A program made the position numbers and the translations under genes. 64,000 nucleotides of DNA, taken from assembly GCF_900106765.1 (NCBI RefSeq), contig NZ_FNNG01000002.1:62001-126000 (forward strand). Reading direction: 5' to 3'. The notes beneath the pieces are model-generated. The model had not been told where the DNA came from, ran no database searches, and saw nothing but the letters and a program-made list of their open reading frames with translations. Each line of letters opens with the position of its first letter. Within the stretch, counting starts at the first letter, position 1. Below, in pieces: positions 48,688 through 64,000 of this stretch. Source of the DNA: Tepidimicrobium xylanilyticum (GTDB lineage: Bacteria > Bacillota > Clostridia > Tissierellales > Tepidimicrobiaceae).

Positions 48688-48723
48688 TAAAATAGCCATT
48701 ACCTAAAGGTAATGGCTATTTTA
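48688..48723. terminator. Bidirectional terminator between dsbA-like and folT
   Basis: A perfect 16-bp stem (TAAAATAGCCATTACC and its complement) with TAAA loop and T/A-rich flanks on both sides, overlapping the end of folT. Confidence 0.88.
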
Positions 48724-49254
48724 CTTAGTATCTAATGCTAAAGGAAGTCTACTCAATATCACTTTCATCATATAAGAGTATATAGGTATATTCACCAATT
48801 GGCTTATTATTCTTCCAGGCAGAATAGTTGCCAAGGGTATACTAAATAAAGTTCTCATGAAATATGCCCACAATACTATGGAAGTAATAACTTGTCCCAC
48901 TGCAATTGCTACGAAAAGATTGATAAAAGAGGTTTTGCAATCTTTATCCTTACACCGCATCATGATAAGACCAGGTATTACTCCTGTTAAAGCAGCATTT
49001 AAAGTAAAATGTGGCATATATGGACCTATTGGACTGATTATCATACCTATTATATCCCCAATTGCTCCAACAATTGCTCCGGCTACAGGGCCAAAAACTA
49101 TTCCTGCAAATATAATCGGAAAACCCCCAAAGCCGATTCTAATGATTTCAAGCCCTCCACCACCTATTCTAATACTGCCAACTCTAGTTAATACAACATT
49201 TAAGCCAATTAAAAGTGCGTAATAAGCAATATTTCTAGTGTTTAATCTCCTCAT
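48721..49254 (-). CDS. folT: Folate ECF transporter S component FolT
   Basis: A 177-residue six-helix substrate-binding membrane subunit of an energy-coupling-factor vitamin importer. RNIAYYALLIGLNVVLTRVGSI, GFGGFPIIFAGIVFGPVAGAIVGAIGDIIGMII and HFTLNAALTGVIPGLIM fit the ECF S-component family. Folate is the predicted substrate because a tetrahydrofolate riboswitch lies directly upstream. The ATG at 49254 has AGGAGG upstream; the longer ORF extends back across the riboswitch and is spurious. It needs the shared EcfA/A'/T module from elsewhere. Confidence 0.9.
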   Translation of the reverse strand: MRRLNTRNIAYYALLIGLNVVLTRVGSIRIGGGGLEIIRIGFGGFPIIFAGIVFGPVAGAIVGAIGDIIGMIISPIGPYMPHFTLNAALTGVIPGLIMMRCKDKDCKTSFINLFVAIAVGQVITSIVLWAYFMRTLFSIPLATILPGRIISQLVNIPIYSYMMKVILSRLPLALDTK

Positions 49255-49277
49255 TAAAAAAGCCTCCTTCCTATTAA

Positions 49278-49300
49278 GATATGGCAGTACTGCCACATCT
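49278..49300 (-). promoter_or_regulatory. Palindrome in the folT riboswitch expression platform
   Basis: GATATGGCAGTACTGCCACATC (49278-49299) is self-complementary apart from wobble positions. Its CTGCCA can also pair with the 5' strand of riboswitch P1 (TGGCAG), and CACATCT (49294-49300) can pair with AGATGTG (49316-49322). These exclusive pairings lie just before the folT RBS. Confidence 0.6.
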
Positions 49301-49320
49301 AGAAAGAGACTTATAAGATG

Positions 49321-49420
49321 TGACAGCGAACGCGATAGTTCAACGCAAGCTAAAAGAAGCTCTTCGTTTAGAGGCAACGTTCCATCCTCTAACACTTAAC
49401 GCGAACTACCTACTCTGCCA
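49321..49420 (-). ncRNA. Tetrahydrofolate (THF) riboswitch
   Basis: On the minus strand the leader reads GGCAGAGTAGGTAGTTCGCGTTAAGTG, then an 7-bp hairpin TTAGAGG/CCTCTAA, then GCG...TCGCGTTCGCTGTC. The GAGTAG and TTCGCGTTAAGTG blocks are the hallmarks of THF-I riboswitches, and P1 forms between 49415-49420 and 49321-49326. It controls folT, a classic target of this class. Confidence 0.88.
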
Positions 49421-49539: not shown

Positions 49540-49572
49540 TACGAAAATCTTGTAAAATGCAAGGTTTTCGTA
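49540..49572 (-). terminator. Intrinsic terminator, probably the original rnpB terminator
   Basis: A 13-bp stem with one wobble (TACGAAAATCTTG / CAAGGTTTTCGTA), followed by TTTTT on the minus strand. It lies just downstream, in that orientation, of the RNase P RNA 3' remnant, as a native rnpB terminator would. Confidence 0.75.
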
Positions 49573-49582
49573 AAAAAGTTTA

Positions 49583-49622
49583 TGAGTAAATCTATAAGCC
49601 GAATTCTGTCATCGTTTGGAAC
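49583..49622 (-). ncRNA. rnpB: RNase P RNA 3'-end remnant (possible attachment site)
   Basis: The minus strand reads GATGACAGAATTCGGCTTATAG within 49583-49622, the 3' end of A-type bacterial RNase P RNA: the P4 strand ACAGAA-CGGCUUA and the closing P1 strand. The rest of the roughly 350-nt RNA is missing upstream (49623 onward is unrelated phage DNA). The GAGGAAAGTCC 5' block was not seen elsewhere in the window. The pattern fits integration into the rnpB 3' end with the full gene at the far junction. Confidence 0.7.
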
Positions 49623-49668
49623 AATATCTTTCTATATTTTTATAAATCTTTTTTAATGGTGGCAAATA

Positions 49669-49692
49669 GGTAGCAAAATATATTTTGCCACC
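49669..49692 (-). terminator. Hairpin after the 76-aa phage gene
   Basis: GGTAGCAAAATATATTTTGCCACC is a near-perfect palindrome (one wobble) 7 nt after the stop of the 76-aa gene. The T-run after it is poor, so it is a weak terminator candidate. Confidence 0.4.
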
Positions 49693-50303: not shown

Positions 50304-50614
50304 TTAATTATGGTCTACTTCATATTGTATAATATTCAATCCTTTTACTGCTGACTCTATGAGTATATCCAATTCTCGAATAGTTATATTAATTCCTTTA
50401 TTAACTAGAAAATCTACAACATATTCCTTTTTCAACTTACCTTGTCCTTTTTCTTTATAAATCTGTTCAGCTACTACTACTGCTACTTTTGCCCAGAAAT
50501 AAATATTTTCTCTCTGCTCCTTAGTGGTTTTCTGCCTAATAAAAGGAACTATCAAATATGTTACAATAGCCCCTAGAATTGGTATGATACCTTTACGATT
50601 ATATCAATGTTCAT
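50304..50614 (-). pseudogene. Phage holin, LLH family (frameshifted)
   Basis: The C-terminal part (IRQKTTKEQRENIYFWAKVA, EYVVDFLVNKGINITIRELD) matches LLH-type phage holins. The true start is ATG 50614 behind AGGAGG: MNIDIIVK, then one base is missing at the GGT, and the frame resumes IIPILGAIVTYLIVPFIR, which is the membrane helix. The 311-nt length is one short of a multiple of three. Holins permeabilise the host membrane for lysis; this copy is disrupted unless the sequence has an error. Confidence 0.8.
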
Positions 50615-51183: not shown

Positions 51184-51732
51184 TTATGGAAAATGTATTA
51201 TAGTAATAGTAGAAAAAGTTCTATAGCTGCTATATCCATCTGAATTGTATGCTCTAACTCTATATGCTACAGTATTCCAGCCTTCCAAAACTGTATCAGT
51301 ATAGCTTCTAGCAGTTCCACTATATATTTGTATCCAACTTTCTCCATTAACTTGTCTTTCTAAATAATACCTTGTGGCACCATAACTGCTACTCCACGAA
51401 ATTGTTATTGCATCTCTAACTCTTATTTCTGTTGGTATTGTAATACTTGAAGGCGTTGAAGGTGGTTCAAGAACAGTTTCATACAAAATTAATTTATACG
51501 TTATATATGAACCAGATTCACTTTCCAATACAAGTTCTGCCCTATAAGTCGCATTAGCTTTCTGCGTTACCCAATCTGTTTGCCAACTCCATGTATATCC
51601 TTCATCTTTATCGAAAATATATACATAAGCATAAACATAGTTTCCACTATATCCAACTTTTGGACTGTCAGCTAGTTCACGTCTTGTATACACTTTATAT
51701 GTGTCACTAGCTACTATACTTGTTTTAGCCAT
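51184..51732 (-). CDS. Phage tail-associated protein with fibronectin type III-like domain
   Basis: 182 residues without internal lesions. The first half is an aromatic-rich beta region (TYKVYTRRELADSPKVGYSG, GYTWSWQTDWVTQ); the second (about 92-180: PPSTPSSITIPTEIRVRDAI, SWSSSYGATRYYLERQVNG, YRVRAYNSDGYSSYR) is a typical FN3 domain. Such proteins sit at phage tail tips or fibres and bind carbohydrate surfaces. It follows the tail-collar fibre pseudogene. The cell would have no use for it without a phage particle unless it is a tailocin remnant. Confidence 0.7.
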   Translation of the reverse strand: MAKTSIVASDTYKVYTRRELADSPKVGYSGNYVYAYVYIFDKDEGYTWSWQTDWVTQKANATYRAELVLESESGSYITYKLILYETVLEPPSTPSSITIPTEIRVRDAITISWSSSYGATRYYLERQVNGESWIQIYSGTARSYTDTVLEGWNTVAYRVRAYNSDGYSSYRTFSTITIIHFP

Positions 51733-51751
51733 TTTATATCACTATTTATGC

Positions 51752-52536
51752 CTAAACCAAATTTCTCCAATTTACATTTGTATCATTAGGAGATATAATA
51801 GCATTTCTTAACTGTGCTATATTATGTAATGTATTAGGATAAGCCTTTGAAAGTACAGTAAAAACACCCCCACTTATAGGAATTTGCTTTATATTCTCTA
51901 CATTTTCGAGTTTCCTTGCACCTTCTTCTATTCCATCTGATTTAGTTTTATCCTCTTTTGTCATATAACCATCTTGTTCTTGTGTCGCCTTTTTTGCCAA
52001 GTGTGTCTTAACAGTATCATCTAACTCTTTAACTGTTTTGGTATTTCCTTCTCCTGCAAATGCTTTTACAGCATCGTTTATAGCCTCGCGAGTAGCAAAT
52101 ATCAAAGACTGATCAATTGTAGCTGACACATTTGGTGCATCTCCCACAATTGTTATAACATTAACTTGTCTTTCCAGTATTTCAGAAAAACTTGGTCAAG
52201 GAATATATTCTGCTAATGCTCCAGCATTACCGCAACAATATAAAATTTCGCCAAGGTCTGAATCATCAGTAAATACTCCTAATTCCTCCAGTAAAATCCG
52301 TTTGTAAGTTTTTGATTCGATAGCACTTCCCCGATTTTAGTTTTTCCTCCAGGAAGTATCTTTAATATACTTAAAGTTATAGATTGTACTTAATTTATTA
52401 AGCTATTAAGTTCTGCAATGGTCTGCCCACTTAATTATCCAACTCCAATTCTTGTAAGATTAAGCTGCACTCCTGTCAAAGCTTTCGCTTGAAAAGCATG
52501 TCCTTTATTAGTAATTTGTATTACTCCAAAACTCAT
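51752..52536 (-). pseudogene. Phage tail-collar fibre protein, multiple stops
   Basis: The start at ATG 52536 reads MSFGVIQITNKGHAFQAKAL then TGVQLNLTRIGVG, the tail-fibre N-terminal domain, followed by TAA, TAA, frameshifts, a TGA after EYIP, then an open 131-codon frame (52147-51752) with NVSATIDQSLIFATREAIND and KKATQEQDGYMTKEDKTKSD. The whole is a tail-collar fibre of about 260 residues. At least four lesions. Confidence 0.8.
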
Positions 52537-52539
52537 AAT

Positions 52540-53103
52540 CTACACCACCTGTTCTACTGTATATATGTCTCCAACATGCAGTACAGTTCCAAAATATATT
52601 GGCAATTCTGCAGACATTGCAACAATAACCTGCTCTAGTCTAGAACAAACATTTTTTACCTTTTCAATTGCCATTGCAAATTAATCAGCTAATTCTCCAA
52701 TTACTGCAGTATTACTTGTTATCACGCGGAAATAATATGGGTCTCCGCCATATTCAAACCATTCTTCAACTTCTCCATCATCAAAATAATCTTCTATAAC
52801 TTGCTCTATTGCATATGGTGTTCCTCTGTATCGGTATACCTTTATTGCATTTTTGATCAACTGCCTTTTTACTTCAATATCAGCATGTGCATCATACCAA
52901 TCTACATGTAATTGCCATGCCAACTCATCCAATGCTGAATTGTCAAGTTCATTCACCTGCAATAGCATCATACAAACTTTCACTTCGTCAGCCAGTTGAT
53001 AAAAATGTGGATTAAGTGCAGCACATAAGGCCTGTGTAGTAGGATCCTGTTTCATATATGATGTTTACAAACTAAGAAGGTCAACATCTTTAAGTGTTAT
53101 CAT
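52540..53103 (-). pseudogene. Phage tail protein I, two in-frame stops
   Basis: One continuous frame from ATG 53103 (MITLKDVDLLSL) through TAA, MKQDPTTQALCAALNPHFYQ, LDELAWQLHVDWYDAHADIE, YRGTPYAIEQVIEDYF and VITSNTAVIGELAD, a second TAA (52681-52683), and IEKVKNVCSRLEQVIVAMSA to the end at 52540. It matches P2 gpI-like baseplate proteins of about 187 residues. Two point nonsense mutations inactivate it; RBS GGAGG is intact. Confidence 0.82.
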
Positions 53104-53785
53104 CTATATCAATCCTCCATATGCTATATTCACAGTCACCATTTTGGCTACTTGATTGAATTCTACAGTAGTAAACGCTAGCTTAGTAATATCAATTCGA
53201 TAAGCCCCTGCATTAAGTATTAGTTGCCTTAGATAATCTGGGTTAATATCTCGGCCGAGTTTTTCTGATTGCCATGCATTATAGCTTCTATAGTACTCTT
53301 AAGTATCAGTTCCTCAGCTTGTCTATCAACACTAATATAATAATTCAAATTAATATTGTAACTTACTTCCGCTGGAGCTGACACCTGAACATTGTCTGTT
53401 AAGGGCCTGCGATTCTTTGCGCTCACAATAGCTTCCACTTTATCAAGTATATCCTGCGTAGGTATTTTTCTACCTTTCATCAATACTACTATATCAACTA
53501 CTCATGGAGCAGATGATGTAACTGATATATCGGGTTATATTTACATATGCAGTCTGAGCCCAATAAATATATGCTCCTTCTGGTCCAGCCACAGAAAAAC
53601 TCTCTGGAGCTAGGCGAATTCGTTCACGGTAACTTTCGTCACCTCAATATCAGAACCTCCTGAACTTGTATCTATATTTTCAACATTAGCCACATATGCG
53701 ACTGGAACAACAATAGTTTTTACCTGCCCAGCTGTAAAATCGTTATATTTTTCTCCTCCCTCAGTCACTTCTGCAATTATATCAC
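53104..53785 (-). pseudogene. Phage baseplate J-like protein, 5' part lost and frames broken
   Basis: Pieces in different frames give, in order, EKYNDFTAGQVKTIVVPVAY, DESYRERIRLAPESFSVAGP, EGAYIYWAQTAYVNI, VVDIVVLMKGRKIPTQDILD, PAEVSYNINLNYYISVDRQA, AWQSEKLGRDINPDYLRQLI and a C-terminal NQVAKMVTVNIAYGG, which is baseplate J from its middle to its end. There are at least four lesions. The N-terminal part is missing: upstream the frame runs into an ABC transporter sequence. Confidence 0.82.
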
Positions 53786-54613
53786 AAAATCTATAGGATG
53801 AAAGCCTATGAGATATATAAAGGACAATTTTATTGCCTACAATTTCATTGAATTTTGAGTATACTTCAAATTCAGAAATAGGATCCAAAGCTTCTGTTGG
53901 TTCATCTAATATTATTCTAGGTGCATCACGGTATAAGGCTCTAGCAAAAGCTATCTTTTGAGCCTCCCCCTGAAATTTCCACTCCATCTTCATCAAAGTC
54001 CTTATACAAAGGTGTATGCAAACCTTTAGACATCTTATCTATTCTTTATCTTAATCCAACTTTTTCTATAGTAACCATCACATAACTTTCATAGAAGTCT
54101 ACTGAAGTAGCAACATTCTTCCCAAAGAGAAGGAAAATAGTTTGAAGTCCTGAAATACTACTGAAAATAGCCCCTTATATTCTTCATAATTATATTTTTT
54201 AATATCTATTCCATTTAGAAGTATTTCACCTTCATTTGGGTCATATAGCCTGCATAATAGCTTTATAAATGTAGTCTTACCTGAACCATTCATACCTACT
54301 ATTGCTAAACATTTACCTATTTTCAATTTCATAGAAACATTCTTGAGCATACTTATCTGTACCAGGATATTAATAGGTATCCTATGTTTTTTAATAGCTG
54401 AAGGAAATTTACATTACTTGGCATGGAATCTAGCAATATCTTCGGTAAGTATATCTCTAGTAATGGAATAACTACTGTTACCACAATCTGTACTCCACAT
54501 ATTAAGAACAGTATCTTATCCCATGTCCAAAGATTTTTTATTAAATAAACAGTATTGTTCCATGTAAAATGTTTGGGTTTTGTTTTCTTCCTTTTCTCCT
54601 TCATATCTATCAC
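53782..54613 (-). pseudogene. ABC exporter (permease-ATPase) remnant
   Basis: ATG 54613 starts a permease N-terminus (KPKHFTWNNTVYLIKNLWTW, one membrane helix, LEIYLPKILLDSM), then most of the membrane domain is deleted and the ATPase follows: Walker A GMNGSGKTT, Q-loop FSVVFQDFKLFS, a frame change, the signature region GVEISGG-AQKIAFARALYR, Walker B IILDEPTEALDP and the H-loop YISHRLSSYRF. The family is the peptide/bacteriocin exporter type. The end is fused to baseplate J sequence near 53785. Confidence 0.82.
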
Positions 54614-55449: not shown

Positions 55450-56283
55450 TTACTCAATTTTCATATACTTTTTCTCTTCCTTTTCCTCCATACTATAAAA
55501 CTTCTCTGCTGATTTTAGCATAGCCTCTATGATACCACTCCTAAAACCTTTTTCTTCCAGCTTAATAATACCTTCAATACTTGTTCCTCCTGGTGAACAA
55601 ACTGCATCCTTAAGTTCTCCCGGATGTTTCCCAGTTTCTAGCACCATTTTTGCAGCTCCTTCAACAGCCTTTGCAGCAAATCTATAGGCATCTTTTCTTG
55701 GTATTCCTAAAAGAACTGCTCCATCTGACATGGCTTCAATTAGCATATATATAAAGGCTGGAGATGAACCACTTACAGAACCTACTGCCTTCATTAAGTC
55801 TTCTTTAACTTCTATAACTTCGCCAAAACTTGTAAAAAACTTCAGGATTTCCTTTCTTTCTTCTATAGTCATATTATCTGAAAAGCATATTCCTGTAATG
55901 CCACATCCAATCATAGCAGGAGTATTTGGCATTGCCCTTGCTACCTTTACATCTTTATCAAACATAGACTTGATCACATTTATGGAAAAATTTGGTGCAA
56001 TAGCAATAACTATAGAGTCTTTAGAAATTTTATCTTTAATTTCTTCTATAACTTCACTATAAATATCAGGTTTAACTGCAAGAACATTTATTCTAGCATT
56101 TTCAGCTACATCTTTGCTATCCTTAGCCATAACAACATTATATTTTTTGTTCAATCTTTCAAGATTTTCAATGCTCTTTGTATATACAATAACATCTTCC
56201 TTTTTTACGAATCCATAATTTAAAGCACCTGAAAGCATAGCTTCCCCCATATTGCCACATCCTATAAATCCTATTTTTTTCAT
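55450..56283 (-). CDS. proC: Pyrroline-5-carboxylate reductase ProC
   Basis: An intact 277-residue enzyme making proline from pyrroline-5-carboxylate with NAD(P)H. N-terminal Rossmann motif GFIGCGNMGEAMLSG, the VLAVKPD segment, VARAMPNTPAMIGCG, and the C-terminal signature VCSPGGTSIEGI are present. The ATG at 56283 has AAAGGGG upstream. It sits alone inside a decayed region yet shows no lesions, so it is under selection or recently acquired. A short acidic-basic tail (EEKEEKKYMKIE) is unusual. Confidence 0.95.
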   Translation of the reverse strand: MKKIGFIGCGNMGEAMLSGALNYGFVKKEDVIVYTKSIENLERLNKKYNVVMAKDSKDVAENARINVLAVKPDIYSEVIEEIKDKISKDSIVIAIAPNFSINVIKSMFDKDVKVARAMPNTPAMIGCGITGICFSDNMTIEERKEILKFFTSFGEVIEVKEDLMKAVGSVSGSSPAFIYMLIEAMSDGAVLLGIPRKDAYRFAAKAVEGAAKMVLETGKHPGELKDAVCSPGGTSIEGIIKLEEKGFRSGIIEAMLKSAEKFYSMEEKEEKKYMKIE

Positions 56284-56630
56284 ATAAGACACCCCTTTCA
56301 TAATATATTTCTATATATTTAAACTTTATCTGGTAAATTAAGTCTTACTCAAAGTAATAGCAATATATACATACTTTTCATACCCAATTATATTTTACAC
56401 TCTATTAGTTATATTTCAAGGAAAAACACATATTTTATAGATAATACATCACTGCGTAACAAAATAAACTGTGCCTAGGACAATTATTTTTTTATTAAAC
56501 ATTAGTATTTCACCATAGAATTTTCAGGTACATAGTCTTTTAATTTATAATCCAATACCCTTTCCAAATCTATAACAAATATAGTACTTAATCAATAAGT
56601 TTGTCCAGTAAAATAAAAGGAAGAGTGAAT
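56284..56630. other. Intergenic region between proC and the oxidase pseudogene
   Basis: A 347-nt AT-rich stretch between divergent genes. It should hold the proC promoter. I see no ORF, strong repeat or terminator. AAGGAAGAG at its right end is the RBS of the pseudogene. Confidence 0.4.
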
Positions 56631-58440
56631 ATGAAAAAGTTAAAAAATTATCTAGGTCCTCGTACTGTTAGAACTTTCGATATAGAAGCCATATCCATTC
56701 CAATTGTATATAACAAATATGGATATCATGATCCAAATGGCCTTATATTTGTATTGAGAAAAGACTCAAGTAGAATTCAAAAATGGCTAAAAGTACCTTG
56801 AAATGTCACCACCTCAGCACTATAAAGAGGTTCAACCTCTGGTTATAAGAGGAAATGTAAGTGATGAGATATGTATAAATCTATACAATAAACTTAATAG
56901 GAGAGTATCCCTTCACGTGTAAGGGTTAAAATACGATGTTCAGACTTCTGATGGAACAAATGTTGGATACAATAGAGATATTACTACAGACAATGTGCAC
57001 ACTACACTTATTATTCCGAAAAGGAGGGAATTTACTTTTTCAGCGACATGCAGATACAAGAAGCAATGAATTAGGTACAAATGTCCATGGTCTATTTGCT
57101 GCTATTATTGTTGAAGAAGCAGAATCAACATGGTTTGACCCAGTCACTGGAGAGCCTCTAGAAAGCGGATTGTTTGCAGATATCTACCACCCCACTAAAC
57201 CAACCTTCATGGAATATATAGTCTTCTTCCATGATAAGATGGAAATAAAAGATAAAAATGGCGAAACACCTATAAATCCCAATACTAATTTACCATCATC
57301 GGCTATAGGAGTAAGCTATCGCTCAGAACCTATGTGAAATCGAAAGTCACTTGACTATCCTACGGATGGGGATGAGCATATAGTATCTGGTGAAGATATT
57401 TTCATGAGTTCGTGGCTATATGGAGACTCTGCAATCGAGCTATTAAGGCCTTATGCAGGAGATTCTGCAAAGATAAGACTCATAAACGCTGGCATAAAGG
57501 AAACTCACGTTTTCCATCTTTACAACCATCAGTGGAGATTAGAGCCTGATGACCCGAAGTCTACTATTATAGACTTTATTTCCATAAGTCCACAGGAATG
57601 CTATACCATAGACATTTTTCATGGTGCGGGTAGCTATAATCACATGATTGGAGATGCAATATGGTACTGCCACCTATACCCCCATTTTCATGAAGGTATG
57701 TGGGCTTATGGAGGATATATGACAAATTAGAAGATGGAAGTGGGAAAATGCCTGATGGTACTCCAATTGAAAGACTAATGCCATTAAAGGACAAATTGCC
57801 ACCACCAGAAAAGGATGAAATGCACTCAGGATATACATATTTCATCAATGGTAAATTTGGAGAAAGACCATTGCAACCTCCTTTAGGTATTCTCACTCGA
57901 GATAGAAAAAACAAAATAGAACCAACACCTTTAGAAAAGGCAAACTTTGTTACTAGAGCACCTGGGGATTTATATAGCCAAACCTGCCCCTATGATTCCC
58001 GAAAAAACTTAAAAATATTTGAAATAACCCTAGTACAGGCAAAACTGGTATATAATGATTATGGTTGGCATGGCCCACAGGGGCGCTTCTTCGTATTAAA
58101 GGAAGAAATTAAAGAGCATGAAAGCTTCAAAAGATATACTAAAAAAGTTGAACGTGGAGAAATTAAGGTAGAACCCCTTGTTATTACGTGCAAATGTCGG
58201 AGATTGTATATAGGTAGGTTAGACAAGTCTATTGCCAAAATATATAGAAAAAACCTACTTCCAGCTAAAAACATTAACTGATATTGTAGGATATCATATT
58301 CAACTTGTTAAATTTGACACCATGGTTTCAGACCGAAGTGCAAATGGATGGAACAATATAGCAGGTTCAGGCCAATATAAAACATTAATAGAAAGGTTCT
58401 ACGCAGACGAAGAGTTAAATATGGTATTTTTCCATAACAA
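56631..58440 (+). pseudogene. Multicopper oxidase (large, MnxG-like) remnant
   Basis: ATG 56631 starts NYLGPRTVRTFDIEAISIPI, then fragments in changing frames cover GTNVHGLFAAIIVEEAESTW, ETHVFHLYNHQWRLEPDD and IWYCHLYPHFHEGMW (copper-site region), and VGYHIQLVKFDTMVSDRSAN to ELNMVFFHN. There are at least seven stops or frameshifts. The copper motif normally reads HCHLYPH; here the first His is Tyr. The 3' end is cut near 58440, where the antisense substrate-binding-protein gene begins. The only plus-strand gene in the decayed block. Confidence 0.8.
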
Positions 58441-59434
58441 ACTCATCGTATGGATATTCATCTCCGTAAAGAATACTTGCTAGCCACATTTTACCTAATA
58501 TGCTTGTGGGAACTAATGAACCCCAAGCCTCAAACTCATTCGGCATAGAAAACACATTGCCTTTTTCTATTGCTGTAATTCCCTTTAGATTGCTATCATT
58601 TAGCACATCTTCCTTGGTGTACTTCGCTTCAGGTGCTATTATAATGTATTCTGGATTGTATTCTACAAGCTGTTCATATGAAATGTCAACCCAATAGCTA
58701 TCCTCAATATTACCAGCTACGTTTATTCCACCAGCAATTTCTATTAAATCGTTTTGATACATATTCTTTGTTGCAGTTGATAGGAAACCGCCATTTCCAG
58801 CCAGATAAACTGTTGGCTTGTTCTCAATATCTGCATGGATAGATTTAAGTAGGTTGTCCTTTTCCTTATAGTAATCTAAAAGCTTTTCATAGTCCTCAAC
58901 ACCTGTAAGCTTACCAATCATTGCAATCATCTCAGATAAAAGCTCCTGATTTTCAGGATTTACTCCTATTACTGTAATTCCCATGCTTTCTAAGGTCTCT
59001 ATCTGGTCTTTTAATCTAATAGGTAAAATTACAAGGTCTGGTTCTAATGAAATACATCCTTCAAGATCAAATTCTTTAGCAGTTCCTACATTTGGCAAAT
59101 CTAACAGCTCTGGTGCTGCTAGAGAGTATATGGGTCTTTCATCAGCCTTAGCTTCAATGCCTACTACCCTGTCCTGTAAACCTAATGCAATTAATGCTGA
59201 TGTAGGTATGTAATAACCACTTACAATTCTCTCAGCTTCTTTTTCAATGGTTACAGTTCTTCCCAAATGATCAACAACTGAAATTATCTCTTCATCTCTA
59301 TTTTCATCAGGACTTTCTTCTAATAGGTTTTCATCAACTTTTTCTACTTCATTTCCAACATTGGCTATTGTACAAGCAACTGCTGTAAATGCCATAATAA
59401 ATACAAGTAATGTTACTAGTAATCTCTTTTTCAT
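58415..59434 (-). CDS. ABC transporter substrate-binding lipoprotein (Peripla_BP_2), C-terminus probably replaced
   Basis: A lipoprotein with lipobox FTAVAC (residue 21), an acidic linker, and a helical-backbone binding domain: VVDHLGRTVTIEKEAERIVS, DLEGCISLEPDLVILP, YNPEYIIIAPEAKY, GSLVPTSILGKMWLASILY. This fold carries iron-siderophore, cobalamin or related ligands. The expected end after YPYDEFV is missing: the last residues (MEKYHI) are read from antisense oxidase DNA, so the C-terminal helix is lost. The permease and ATPase genes are not adjacent. RBS AAGGAGGG. Confidence 0.85.
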   Translation of the reverse strand: MKKRLLVTLLVFIMAFTAVACTIANVGNEVEKVDENLLEESPDENRDEEIISVVDHLGRTVTIEKEAERIVSGYYIPTSALIALGLQDRVVGIEAKADERPIYSLAAPELLDLPNVGTAKEFDLEGCISLEPDLVILPIRLKDQIETLESMGITVIGVNPENQELLSEMIAMIGKLTGVEDYEKLLDYYKEKDNLLKSIHADIENKPTVYLAGNGGFLSTATKNMYQNDLIEIAGGINVAGNIEDSYWVDISYEQLVEYNPEYIIIAPEAKYTKEDVLNDSNLKGITAIEKGNVFSMPNEFEAWGSLVPTSILGKMWLASILYGDEYPYDEFVMEKYHI

Positions 59435-59483
59435 AATAACCCTCCTTACTTTCGTTATATTTCTTAAAATATAACGTAGATTA

Positions 59484-59515
59484 AAGTATCAAAGGGTACA
59501 AACCCTTTGATACTT
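59484..59515 (-). terminator. Hairpin terminator after the MocA-like gene
   Basis: A perfect 13-bp stem (AAGTATCAAAGGG / CCCTTTGATACTT) with 6-nt loop, 17 nt after the stop; TTTAATC follows on the minus strand. U-tract short. Confidence 0.65.
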
Positions 59516-59531
59516 GAGCTTATTCAGCTTA

Positions 59532-60122
59532 TCATAAATTTATACCAAGTTTCTTAGCCTTTTCATAATCATCTATAGTATCTATATCCAAATTCTCATA
59601 CTCTGTTTGAATATCTACCCCAATTACAAGATCTTGATTATTGTGTATGACAATTTTACCCCCTTGGTCCTCTTTTAGATTTAAAAGATCCTCTTTTAAA
59701 TGAAAAGGAAATATTACAGGATTTCCCCTTGTGCCGTTGTAATAGGGTAGTACGATCTTAGATGGATTATACTCAAATTCACTACATAATTTTTGAATAG
59801 TAGTCAGCTTGATAAAAGGCTGATCAGCGACAAAAAACATAAAACCATCTGCTTCCTTTGAACTTCTCAATGCTGCCTTTATAGATTCGCTTTGACCTAA
59901 ATAGTATCTAGGATTCTTTATTCCTTTATATCCTAGCCTTTCAGCCTTTCTTAAAATATCTTCATTCTTTGCAACTACTATGGTTTCGTAAAAATCGCAT
60001 TCTTTAATGGTTTCCAAAATATATTCATATATATATTTATCATTAATCTTTAAGTGAAGCTTATCTGACATCATTCGCTTACTCATGCCAGAAGCCATCA
60101 CAATAGCACTTATCCTAAGCAT
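59532..60122 (-). CDS. MocA-like molybdenum cofactor cytidylyltransferase
   Basis: A 196-residue nucleotidyltransferase of the MobA/MocA group. The N-terminal SAIVMASGMSKRM is the nucleotide-binding loop (usually LAAGxSxRMG; the consensus GG region is slightly altered), with IVVAKN, FFVADQPFI (metal-binding DQP) and GTRGNPVIFP. Members add CMP to molybdopterin or guard cofactor of xanthine-dehydrogenase-type enzymes. The gene directly follows the xanthine dehydrogenase gene, which supports cofactor maturation for it. Confidence 0.88.
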   Translation of the reverse strand: MLRISAIVMASGMSKRMMSDKLHLKINDKYIYEYILETIKECDFYETIVVAKNEDILRKAERLGYKGIKNPRYYLGQSESIKAALRSSKEADGFMFFVADQPFIKLTTIQKLCSEFEYNPSKIVLPYYNGTRGNPVIFPFHLKEDLLNLKEDQGGKIVIHNNQDLVIGVDIQTEYENLDIDTIDDYEKAKKLGINL

Positions 60123-60153
60123 TTCCTTATCATTCCCTTTAAATTCTCATTTT

Positions 60154-62775
60154 CTATTTTTTAATCTTTGGCTTGCGATAATAGGTGTTTTCTAGTGGCA
60201 ATTTATACCTGAATTCGCCATCCTTCTTATAGTAAGCATTTTGTACAGCTGGTGCTCCTGGAATAGCTACAATTTCACCAATACCTTTAGCTCCATATGC
60301 CACACCATTAGGATCATTCTTTTCAATCAGATGAATTTCAACAGGTGGCATTTGTGGTGCTTTGAAAAGACCTAATGTGCCAAGTTTTACTTGAGGTACC
60401 CCATCTTTTAAAGGGAAGTCTTCTGTTAAAGCATATCCAAGCCCCATAGCAACTCCACCTTCTATCTGACCTTCTATTGAAAGTGGATTGATTACCCTTC
60501 CAACATCGTGTGCAGACACTACTTTTACAAGCTTTCCTTCCTTGTCTATGACAACAAGCTGTACCGCATATCCATATGCAATGTGGCTTACTGGATTTGG
60601 CTTATCGGAACCTATTGGGTCCGTTGGGAAATCAAATTCTCCAACATATACCTTGCCTTCTAAATCCTCCAGTGTTTTTCCGCTATCTAAATCTGCTTTT
60701 AACTCAGCTGCAGCTTGACGAGCTGCTTCGCCTGTAAATACAGTTTGACGGGAAGCTGTTGTAGTGCCAGCATTTGGAGTATATTTAGTATCAGGATGTT
60801 CTATTACAATCTTATCTGGTGATAATCTTGTAGTCTCACAAATCATTTGTAATATTACAGTTTGTACACCTTGTCCAATTGCTCCAGCGGAAGATCTAGC
60901 ATGGACTTTTCCATCTATTATAACTAAGTTGCAACGTCCTGTATCAGGAATCCCTACCCCAACTCCGGCATTTTTCATAGCAGAGGCAATTCCTACATAA
61001 TAATTAGGATCATTCTCATATTTCTCAAATTTCTCTTTTACTGCTTCCAATGTTTCAGCAAAAGCAGTTCCTTCATCTGCTATCTGCCCATTTGGAAGAA
61101 CTTGACCAGGTCTTATGGCATTTCTGTATCTAAATTCCCATCCTGAAAGTCCAACTTTTTCTGCAAGCTGATTTATAAGACATTCTATGGCAAAGGCTGA
61201 TTGTGTTACACCAAATCCGCGAAATGCTCCTGCAGGTGGATTGTTTGTATAGTAAGCTTTTCCTTCAATATCTACATTCTGATAGTTATATGGACCTGCA
61301 GCATGGGTACATGCTCTTTGAAGCACTGGACCACCTAAGGAAGCATATGCTCCTGTATCAGATATTAGTCTAGCCTTCATTCCTTGCAATATACCATTTT
61401 CATCACAGCCAATTTTCGCATAAATCTTCATAGCATGGCGTTTTGGATGGTAGTTGATACTTTCCTGTCTGCTAAAGTATACTTTTACAGGCCTTTTCAA
61501 TAGATATGCACAAAGAGCAGCCTGATGCTGTACGCTCATATCTTCCTTACCACCAAATCCGCCTCCAACAACTGCACTCTTGATTCTTACTTTCTCATGT
61601 GGAATACCTAAATATTCACTAATCTCATTATATTCATCGTATATACCCTGTCCTCCTGTAATAACCATTACTCCATCCCCGTCTGGTAATGCCACTGCCG
61701 TTTCAGGTTCCATAAAGGCGTGCTCTGTTGGTGGAACATAGAAAGTGCCTTCTACTACGTATTTAGAATTTTCAAGAGCAGTTTCTGCATCTCCTCTTTT
61801 TAGCTTTTCATGAGCAAATAGGTTGTTTTCAGGAACCCTAAATTTGCCAAAATGCATAAATCCTTCTCCGTGGATCTGAGGAGCACCTGGTTTAGCAGCC
61901 TCTTCTGGACTTGTTACTGGTTCTAATACTTCATATTCCACTTCTACAGCCTTAACAGCTGCTTCTGCCTGGTCTCTAGTTTCTGCTACAACTAAAGCCA
62001 ATGTATCCCCAATGCATTTTGTCTCTTCACCTACATCTATCATTCCTGGCCAATCCTTAGCCAAATGACCTATATATCTATTTCCAGGAATATCTTTTGC
62101 TGTAAATACAGCTACAACTCCAGGCATTTCAAGAGCTTTACTTGTATCTATAGATAGAACCTTTGCACGGGCATACTTGCTGAATACATTTTTACCATAA
62201 AGCATGCCTTCAAATTTATAGTCATCTGCATATTTAGCTTGTCCTAAAGCTTTTGGAACTGCATCTACACGGCAGACTCTTTCTCCAACCTTACCTGTTT
62301 GTTTAAGCTCTGGTACCTCTAGGTTTTCTCTCAACATCTTTGCTGCCAATAAGATAGCCTCTTCGATCTTTGCATATCCAGTACAGCGACAAATATTTGT
62401 ACGAATAGCATTTTTCACATCTTGTCTAGTTGGATCTGGATGTTGGTTTATTAAAGCCTTTCCAGCTATAACCATACCTGGAATACAGAATCCACATTGT
62501 ACAGCTCCAGCTGCAGCAAAGGCATAAGAATATACTTCTTTTTCCCTCTCTGTAAATCCTTCTATGGTTTGTATCTCTTTGCCCTCCAACCTTGATAGCT
62601 TTTGTATACAAGCACGGGTTGCTTTGCCATCTATTAGAACAGTACAGGTACCACAGGCACCTTCCTTACATCCGTTCTTTACTGATGTTATTCCCAGTTC
62701 ATCGCGAAGGAAGTCCATTAGCTTCATGTCTTGTTCACATTGATATTCTTTTCCATTTACCTTTATTGTAAACAT
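60154..62775 (-). CDS. xdh: Selenium-dependent xanthine dehydrogenase type molybdenum hydroxylase
   Basis: An 873-residue fusion. Residues 1-150 are two [2Fe-2S] domains: plant-type C36, C41, C44, C56 and a second cluster C94, C97, C129, C131. The molybdenum-binding domain follows (KALGQAKYADD, VVGGGFGGKEDMSVQHQAAL, PPAGAFRGFGVTQSAFAIE, catalytic Glu in GAKGIGEIVAIPGAP). No FAD domain is fused. The arrangement and length match the selenium-dependent family, whose selenium is a labile ligand and is not encoded. Likely role: purine hydroxylation. The gene is flanked by a MocA-like gene and a hydantoinase. Confidence 0.88.
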   Translation of the reverse strand: MFTIKVNGKEYQCEQDMKLMDFLRDELGITSVKNGCKEGACGTCTVLIDGKATRACIQKLSRLEGKEIQTIEGFTEREKEVYSYAFAAAGAVQCGFCIPGMVIAGKALINQHPDPTRQDVKNAIRTNICRCTGYAKIEEAILLAAKMLRENLEVPELKQTGKVGERVCRVDAVPKALGQAKYADDYKFEGMLYGKNVFSKYARAKVLSIDTSKALEMPGVVAVFTAKDIPGNRYIGHLAKDWPGMIDVGEETKCIGDTLALVVAETRDQAEAAVKAVEVEYEVLEPVTSPEEAAKPGAPQIHGEGFMHFGKFRVPENNLFAHEKLKRGDAETALENSKYVVEGTFYVPPTEHAFMEPETAVALPDGDGVMVITGGQGIYDEYNEISEYLGIPHEKVRIKSAVVGGGFGGKEDMSVQHQAALCAYLLKRPVKVYFSRQESINYHPKRHAMKIYAKIGCDENGILQGMKARLISDTGAYASLGGPVLQRACTHAAGPYNYQNVDIEGKAYYTNNPPAGAFRGFGVTQSAFAIECLINQLAEKVGLSGWEFRYRNAIRPGQVLPNGQIADEGTAFAETLEAVKEKFEKYENDPNYYVGIASAMKNAGVGVGIPDTGRCNLVIIDGKVHARSSAGAIGQGVQTVILQMICETTRLSPDKIVIEHPDTKYTPNAGTTTASRQTVFTGEAARQAAAELKADLDSGKTLEDLEGKVYVGEFDFPTDPIGSDKPNPVSHIAYGYAVQLVVIDKEGKLVKVVSAHDVGRVINPLSIEGQIEGGVAMGLGYALTEDFPLKDGVPQVKLGTLGLFKAPQMPPVEIHLIEKNDPNGVAYGAKGIGEIVAIPGAPAVQNAYYKKDGEFRYKLPLENTYYRKPKIKK

Positions 62776-62820
62776 AGAAGCCCCTCTTTTCTTATAGTTT
62801 TTAAATTTATTGAACCATTT

Positions 62821-64000
62821 CTATAAATCACATAAATTACTTCTCTTTAAAAACATTCCATCACCTTTGTTGGCAATGAACTTGTTATTATCTACTAATA
62901 CTTTTCCTCTCTGAATTACCTTTTCCACCACATAGTCTACTTTAAATCCCTCATAGGGTGTATAATCCGCTGAACTGTGCCTATTTTCAATAGTTATAAT
63001 CTTGTCTTTCTTTGCAATAATAATTATATCTGCATCAGAATCTACCTGCACAGCTCCTTTTCTTGGATACAGGCCATAAATCTGTGCTGACCTAGTCATT
63101 AGCTTATCAACTAAGGTTCTTATGGAAATTCCCCTTTTGAGGCCTTCACTAAGGACTATTTCCACCCTTTCCTCTACTCCAGGAGCTCCACCTGGAGCAG
63201 TTCTAAAGTCACTTTTTCCATCCATCTTTTCCTCAAGAAAAAATGGACAATGATCAGTAGCAATTACATCAACCTGACTACTTTTAATTCCTTCCCATAA
63301 AGCTTCTATATCCTCCTGCTTTCTTAAGGGAGGTGCCATAATGTATTTAAGGCCATCAACATCGTCTTCATACCTTTCTTCAGTCAATGTTAAATACTGT
63401 GTACATGTTTCGCAGTATATGTTCTTAACTCCTCTTCTTCTAGCTGAAATAATCTCATCTAATCCCTTTTTAGTGGATACGTGGACAAAGTAGAGATGTG
63501 GGCATCCAGCTATTTCACTTAAGTAAATCATCCTGTTTATGGCTTCTGCTTCTGTAGAATCAGGTCTAGATAATGCATGATATATGGGTTTTGATTTTCC
63601 CAAAGAACCATAATATTCTCTTAAATGCTGAATTGCTCCATGATTTTCAGCATGTACTGCAATTACCGCTCCTAATTCTTTAGCCTTAATAAGTATTTTT
63701 AATATGTCCTCGTCATTTAACCTATTGTCATAGGTCATATATATTTTAAAGCTTGATATACCTTCCTCAACTAGCTTTTCCATTTCTTTCAGCACTTCTT
63801 CATTTACATGCTGGAATACTCCATGGAAACTGTAATCTATAACAGCTTTGCCTTCTGCCAGCTCATAATATTTATCAATCATGTAATTTAAGCTGCAGCC
63901 TTCAGGGCCAAAGGCAATATGGTCTACAATAGTTGTAGTTCCTCCAAAGGCAGCTGCTACTGTTCCAGTGTAGAAGTCATCAATTGCTCTGTATTTTCCT
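62821..64000 (-). CDS. Hydantoinase/dihydropyrimidinase-type amidohydrolase, N-terminus beyond window
   Basis: The open frame continues to the window edge without a break, so the gene is partial (393 residues visible). It is a cyclic-amidohydrolase: GGTTTIVDHIAFGPEGCSLN, SSFKIYMTYDNRL (metal-bridging carboxylated lysine), IAVHAENHGAI, LYFVHVSTKKGLDEI, ATDHCPFFLEEK and GAPGVEERVEIV. The first DxHxH metal motif lies outside the window. Members open hydantoin, dihydropyrimidine or similar rings. Next to the xanthine dehydrogenase it probably serves purine ring degradation. Confidence 0.88.
   Translation of the reverse strand, partial: GKYRAIDDFYTGTVAAAFGGTTTIVDHIAFGPEGCSLNYMIDKYYELAEGKAVIDYSFHGVFQHVNEEVLKEMEKLVEEGISSFKIYMTYDNRLNDEDILKILIKAKELGAVIAVHAENHGAIQHLREYYGSLGKSKPIYHALSRPDSTEAEAINRMIYLSEIAGCPHLYFVHVSTKKGLDEIISARRRGVKNIYCETCTQYLTLTEERYEDDVDGLKYIMAPPLRKQEDIEALWEGIKSSQVDVIATDHCPFFLEEKMDGKSDFRTAPGGAPGVEERVEIVLSEGLKRGISIRTLVDKLMTRSAQIYGLYPRKGAVQVDSDADIIIIAKKDKIITIENRHSSADYTPYEGFKVDYVVEKVIQRGKVLVDNNKFIANKGDGMFLKRSNLCDL

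Follow-up and report, generated by a model that had tools for sequence, protein, structure and literature searches.

A displaced 3' end of the RNase P RNA gene very probably left by the integration of a temperate phage

Introduction

In tyrosine-integrase elements that reside in RNA genes, the target gene is made whole by DNA of the element, a displaced fragment of it marks the far end of the insertion, and the integrase gene adjoins the restored copy. Islander is limited to tRNA/tmRNA genes, and the sites covered by TIGER are tRNA/tmRNA, protein-coding or intergenic; the paper on the TIGER/Islander resource makes no mention of rnpB, the RNase P RNA gene, as a site (PMC12424338). A full-text literature search, whose partial coverage leaves the absence unproven, returned no paper in which rnpB is named as a site of attachment. 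The locus described here resembles the known elements in having a tyrosine integrase, a target completed by element DNA, a displaced fragment at the far end and an integrase next to the restored gene; unlike them, it has the RNase P RNA gene as its target. The mechanism is the standard one for this kind of element, and the rnpB target is apparently undescribed.

Results and Discussion

The copy of the rnpB 3' end in the window

The window, i.e., the whole stretch of DNA that was analysed, is 64 kb long (G000:C2:62001-126000, where G000 is the genome of the window), and the feature under study is located at C2:111583-111622. An earlier note on this DNA had described it as a 40-nt minus-strand copy of the rnpB 3' end. 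The existence of the copy is confirmed: its core (C2:111584-111609, window 49584-49609, minus strand) agrees at 24/26 positions with that of the complete rnpB in G000, the longest exact block between the two being 20 nt. Written in the direction of rnpB, the end of the full gene is ...ACAGAACACGGCTTATAGATTTACTCATTGC, as against ...ACAGAATTCGGCTTATAGATTTACTCATAAA in the window copy. The proposed length, on the other hand, does not stand: since the 30 nt on each side of the copy are at background identity with the full gene (10/30 upstream, 8/30 downstream), the rnpB-derived part comprises about 27 nt and not 40, and the window sequence at about 49611-49622 is not rnpB.

The rnpB-end pattern has exactly two sites in G000 when up to two mismatches are allowed, and likewise with up to three. 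A chance match is excluded, because a control pattern read backwards found no site in all 249 genomes of the order. Under the Rfam RNase P model the scar region reaches 13.5 bits (E 0.011, over 141 bases, with a cut-off of 100 bits), the piece being too short for the model; it lacks the full RF00010 match of a functional RNase P RNA gene. No rnpB at the Rfam cut-off was reported within the window, where the Rfam scan returned the THF riboswitch alone, and ARAGORN found no tRNA or tmRNA gene in it. The earlier note had been right in reporting no further rnpB in the window, a terminator downstream of the copy, which corresponds to the hairpin at 49541-49571, and adjoining phage DNA on the upstream side, which contains pieces of holin, fibre-like, Tail_P2_I and Baseplate_J genes. 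The coordinates of all these features are collected in Table 1.

Each of the two rnpB-end copies of G000 is followed by a hairpin of its own, and we read the one in the window as the original rnpB terminator, displaced along with the scar. The true start of the ECF transporter subunit on the chromosomal flank is probably nearer 49260.

Table 1. Features of the window around and beyond the displaced rnpB end (window positions)
Feature	Position	Strand	Evidence
ECF transporter substrate-binding subunit under the THF riboswitch	48721..49395	-	PF07155, 6.3e-18
THF riboswitch, chromosomal flank	49322..49419	-	RF01831, 77.9 bits
Hairpin terminator	49541..49571	-	RNA fold; hairpin also after rnpB in G019 and G007
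Scar: displaced 3' end of rnpB, distal attachment site, core ACAGAATTCGGCTTATAGATTTACTC	49584..49610	-	24/26 core positions in common with full rnpB
Inverted TTTGCCACC-type repeats beside the scar	49658..49692	.	Candidate integrase arm sites, by position only
Phage holin (Holin_LLH)	50304..50555	-	PF09682, 1.5e-13; phrog_6918, 2.3e-18
Phage fibre/decoration-like protein	51184..51732	-	phrog_10993, 2.7e-26; no Pfam match
Phage protein of unknown function	51752..52147	-	phrog_18608, 5.8e-8; no Pfam match
Phage tail protein I	52681..53055	-	PF09684, 7.9e-24
Baseplate_J, C-terminal part	53229..53483	-	PF04865, 1.4e-10
Chimeric ORF, ABC-transporter C-terminal part and Baseplate_J piece	53610..53996	-	PHROGs matches
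Cargo or later insertion: proC, ABC substrate-binding protein, MocA-like protein, selenium-dependent xanthine dehydrogenase, hydantoinase	55450..64000	.	NCBIfam, Pfam

The full rnpB and the empty site

A whole-genome search with the RNase P model, as proposed in the earlier note, disclosed one complete A-type rnpB in G000 (C2:143317-143669, minus strand, 293 bits), whose match to RF00010 spans positions 1-367. This second copy lies on the same contig and strand as the scar, 31.7 kb away and 17.3 kb beyond the last position of the window, so that direct repeats of the rnpB 3' end are found at both ends of the insertion, with the gene at full length at one of them. Beside it there is a C-terminal fragment of a tyrosine integrase (93 aa; PF00589, 1.2e-16), the only part of the integrase present in G000, whose stop and the 3' terminus of rnpB are about 45 nt apart and which is adjoined by a broken Mutator-type transposase. 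The insertion terminates at C2:143316.

In G019, the only other member of the genus searched, rnpB and the THF riboswitch are separated by 330 bp on one contig, and a single uninterrupted stretch aligns to both flanks of the G000 insertion with 76-78% identity, thus representing the empty site; neither of the two pieces of the G000 insertion matched this stretch at E 1e-5. When the two G000 flanks are joined, they read rnpB, hairpin, riboswitch, in the same order as in G019. The corresponding gap is 211 bp in G007, a member of the same family, and ranges from 1.6 to 58 kb in the other genomes of the family with rnpB and riboswitch on one contig; ordinary genes therefore also sit there in some of them, and among these wider gaps a tail-only repeat occurs in G018 only.

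The earlier note had read the locus as a tyrosine-recombinase element that entered rnpB, with the intact gene past the far junction, and this agrees with the full rnpB 31.7 kb away, the integrase fragment at its end and the empty site in G019. Its alternative, a gene moved by rearrangement, is made unnecessary as far as the flanks are concerned by the uninterrupted G019 site. The 27-nt segment is very probably a displaced rnpB 3' end left by the site-specific integration of a temperate phage, a reading carried by the two copies, the empty site of the relative, the phage pieces at one end, the integrase piece at the other and the recurrence with complete integrases reported below. According to this reading, a phage tyrosine integrase would have acted on two rnpB ends, one carried by the phage and one in the chromosome, the crossover having most likely occurred inside the block CGGCTTATAG. 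The rnpB beside the integrase would have been made whole with a last portion of about 20 nt and a terminator both supplied by the phage, and the old rnpB end, with the old terminator, would have been pushed 31.7 kb away, beside the THF riboswitch. Later decay may then have removed most of the phage, in a space that is now a purine-catabolism cluster with an IS remnant.

The content of the insertion

The phage remnant beside the scar comprises about 4 kb of broken tail and lysis genes. Its tail protein I is 41.5% identical to the counterpart in Paenibacillus phage phiERICV (about 41% for the phages phiERICV and Lily). The remnant seems to break off at ORF 53610-53996, which matches phrog_2392 (ABC transporter) at residues 9-80 (2.1e-18) and phrog_6 (baseplate) at residues 72-118 (3e-5), both of its Pfam matches being under the curated cut-offs. 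Past the window, on to L004:9820, there are YgeW/YgeY/carbamate kinase genes, the Mutator transposase remnant and the integrase fragment beside rnpB. About 27 kb of non-phage genes separate the two end remnants, so that the present content goes beyond that of a simple prophage; the cargo would not have belonged to the original phage. Lysis pieces, tail pieces and an integrase fragment are all that was recognised of the complete gene set of a functional prophage. With no more than 93 aa of the integrase and some 4 kb of disrupted phage genes, the G000 element cannot be active here by itself. The phage pieces gave no match to 32 loci of other genomes and a viral contig, except for an ABC-transporter match with an identity of about 30% in G017 and G011, which was rejected as a sign of common origin.

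The mostly metabolic, non-phage character of the interval, together with the fusion of a host-type gene to a phage gene in ORF 53610-53996, might also be expected if the neighbourhood of rnpB had been moved by a chromosomal inversion or translocation, one end of which lay in a prophage, the 31.7 kb being ordinary chromosome. However, the YgeW of the interval is missing in G019 and present in just 2/20 genomes of the family (G000 and G011), and the interval represents a net insertion, because both of its outer flanks are contiguous in G019; such a rearrangement is thus highly improbable. The same 27 kb or so of other genes between phage pieces and integrase piece would fit two successive entries into rnpB, that of a phage and then that of a metabolic island with its own integrase, in which case the scar and the integrase would derive from different events. 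At tRNA sites, elements commonly accumulate in tandem at a single att site. Nevertheless, a tandem insertion should leave a third rnpB end unless this was lost, and G000 harbors only two (up to three mismatches), which makes two entries unlikely, even if less so than the rearrangement.

The putative exchange site

If the 27-nt segment was displaced by the integration of a temperate phage, the comparison of the paired copies may delimit the region of exchange. The exact blocks of 10/12 in-register pairs have ten positions in common, CGGCTTAYAG, corresponding to CGGCTTATAG (CGGCTTACAG in G208); the two pairs without a common 10-nt block are degraded copies of G363. Directly to the left of the block the two G000 copies differ, the full gene reading AACACGG and the scar AATTCGG, and the full rnpB of all 13 other genomes of the family compared reads ACAGAACACGG, including AACACGG as in G000. 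These letters agree with a crossover located in the block, the left half of the scar then probably being phage-derived; the two differences between scar and full gene could equally come from drift after displacement.

Repeats of the TTTGCCACC type are located beside the sites in G000, G037, G041, G208 and G023, with TTTGTCGCC in G525, and only ATGGCAAA was found near the site of G038; in G216 and G018 no such repeats were found. Their position makes them candidate arm sites.

Recurrence of rnpB-end copies in other genomes

The rnpB-end pattern was searched, with up to two mismatches, in 249 genomes of the order, using the reversed pattern as a control. It matched in 209/249 genomes and twice in nine, the control matching in none. 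Seven of the 249 (G000, G018, G037, G038, G041, G208 and G216) have a short tail as their second copy, and none of these seven contains a second rnpB at the Rfam cut-off. A related pattern, searched with up to three mismatches in 393 genomes of the class (23 of which from the same order), matched in 291, with one match of the reversed control (G527). Outside the order, 4/370 genomes matched more than once, and in three of them (G363, G525 and G547) the extra copies are tails, the G363 stretch L278 having been judged a tail by its sequence only. These recurrence counts are lower bounds, because in the 40 and 102 genomes that gave no match the rnpB end may have diverged or the contigs may be broken. 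Where both copies of a pair are on the same contig, 2.8 to 63 kb separate them; in G208 the two copies are on separate contigs, and the tail copy precedes a THF riboswitch by 3.9 kb.

A 27-nt copy might also have arisen independently of any integration, if a small segment of rnpB was duplicated or recombined, and duplication of this gene does occur, as witnessed by the two complete genes 23.6 kb apart in G511 and by an 81-nt fragment 1.1 Mb off in G238. Yet in 12/12 pairs (10 genomes) the second copy is the 3' end of rnpB, and identity just upstream falls to 6-13/30; moreover, integrases of one clade sit at rnpB in several genomes, and the scar occupies the ancestral rnpB position beside the riboswitch. 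Against this evidence a duplication appears very improbable, and the displacement of the rnpB end by phage integration remains the preferred reading.

Some genomes with other arrangements were left out of the scar count. G023 was omitted for its two full rnpB genes, the second of which lies on a short contig together with rRNA and tRNA genes (L091, G023:C175) and might represent contamination. In G511, likewise omitted, the two complete genes (L276:3408-3762 and L277:11055-11427) are about 91% identical and on one strand, without common flanks. The second site of G238, not counted as it is a 3' fragment without an island (L089:4921-5000, 81 nt, 91% identical to the full gene, on the other strand), is located about 2 kb before a tRNA gene and an SRP RNA gene and could be a displaced or moved scar. 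The copy of G014, excluded as degraded and inverted, has five mismatches and lies about 75 bp downstream of rnpB, near a contig end (L060, G014:C37:6382). G363 harbors three tail-only copies on three contigs (L278, L280 and L281); the sequences after two of these copies resemble each other, which suggests that insertions were repeated or moved.

Elements located at rnpB in the relatives

Between the full rnpB and the tail copy of G038 there is a tailed prophage, in our reading siphovirus-like, with genes for terminase, portal, head, tail and tape-measure proteins, a DnaB-like helicase and the integrase. The layout of the G525 element is that of the G000 remnant: genes for Baseplate_J, fibre and amidase occupy the scar end, and the integrase lies next to rnpB at the other. 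In two genomes belonging to different families, the repeats enclose other genes: the G216 island (L086:4873-L087:5651) contains BrxA, BrxC, an Eco57I-type methylase, PglZ and BrxL, and that of G018 (L052:130-16236) another BREX-like set. Both thus resemble BREX defence islands in their genes, from which they differ in being framed by rnpB-end repeats. Neither a motif scan of the G216 island nor its list of ORFs of at least 80 aa disclosed a tyrosine integrase; in G018 two tyrosine recombinases with Phage_int_SAM_1 domains are located one near each end. The 2.8-kb interval between the copies of G037 yielded no integrase.

The integrase clade

Complete integrases are present near rnpB in four genomes; the distance from the end of the integrase to the rnpB end is 70 nt in G038, 36 nt in G208, 22 nt in G525 and about 1.9 kb in G041. 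Among the 249 genomes, only G038, G208 and G041 encode proteins more than 50% identical to the G038 integrase at E 1e-60 or better, the next being at most 39% identical. The identity to the G038 protein is 52-72% for G208, G041 and the G000 fragment, and 56% for G525. The integrases of G038 and G208 possess the domains Arm-DNA-bind_4, Phage_int_SAM_3 and Phage_integrase, the last two of which are above the cut-off in G041; the rnpB-linked members thus share the domains of this type of phage integrase, and differ from the type at large in forming a separate clade.

A phylogenetic tree of the four rnpB-linked proteins (G038, G208, G041 and G525) and the best-scoring 45 others joined these four and the protein of the IMG/VR viral contig L102 in one clade, with a support of 100/100. 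As L102 has no flanking DNA, a strict count of labels on the tree gives two changes and not one. Apart from the rnpB-linked group and L102, the relatives share 24-38% identity with the G038 integrase, and the available flanks of the sister group (G178-G180, G235 and G236) contain no RNA gene. In 173 related loci with an ORF, some representing the same gene twice and 42 having less than 100 nt of DNA for inspection, an rnpB end was located within 450 nt in five rows (G038 twice, G208 twice, and G525), and a tRNA gene in 41.

The L102 integrase is 66% identical and stops 15 bp before the end of the record, on which no rnpB end was found (15-letter pattern, up to one mismatch). An exact 20-mer of the rnpB end gave no matches in viral contigs, the search for a free phage carrying the rnpB end gave none, with a single 79.5% match (E 0.1) in the phage records, and the integrase protein had no match in these records at E 1e-40.

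Conclusions

It is likely that the rnpB 3' end is a recurrent and overlooked attachment site in this class, used by a dedicated clade of phage integrases and, independently, by other recombinases that would bring in defence (BREX) and metabolic islands, each integration giving the ribozyme a 3' end and a terminator encoded by the element. Since cells cannot do without RNase P RNA and its sequence is highly conserved, its gene is a natural, widespread landing site. Tools restricted to tRNA/tmRNA genes would overlook insertions into rnpB, which represents a third RNA-gene target for comparison with tRNA and tmRNA and offers integrases that form a tractable set, their candidate region of exchange being 10 nt long. 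The finding also raises the question of whether swapping the 3' end and the terminator of the ribozyme changes the processing or the level of RNase P RNA, and makes rnpB a place in which to seek prophages, defence islands and metabolic islands.
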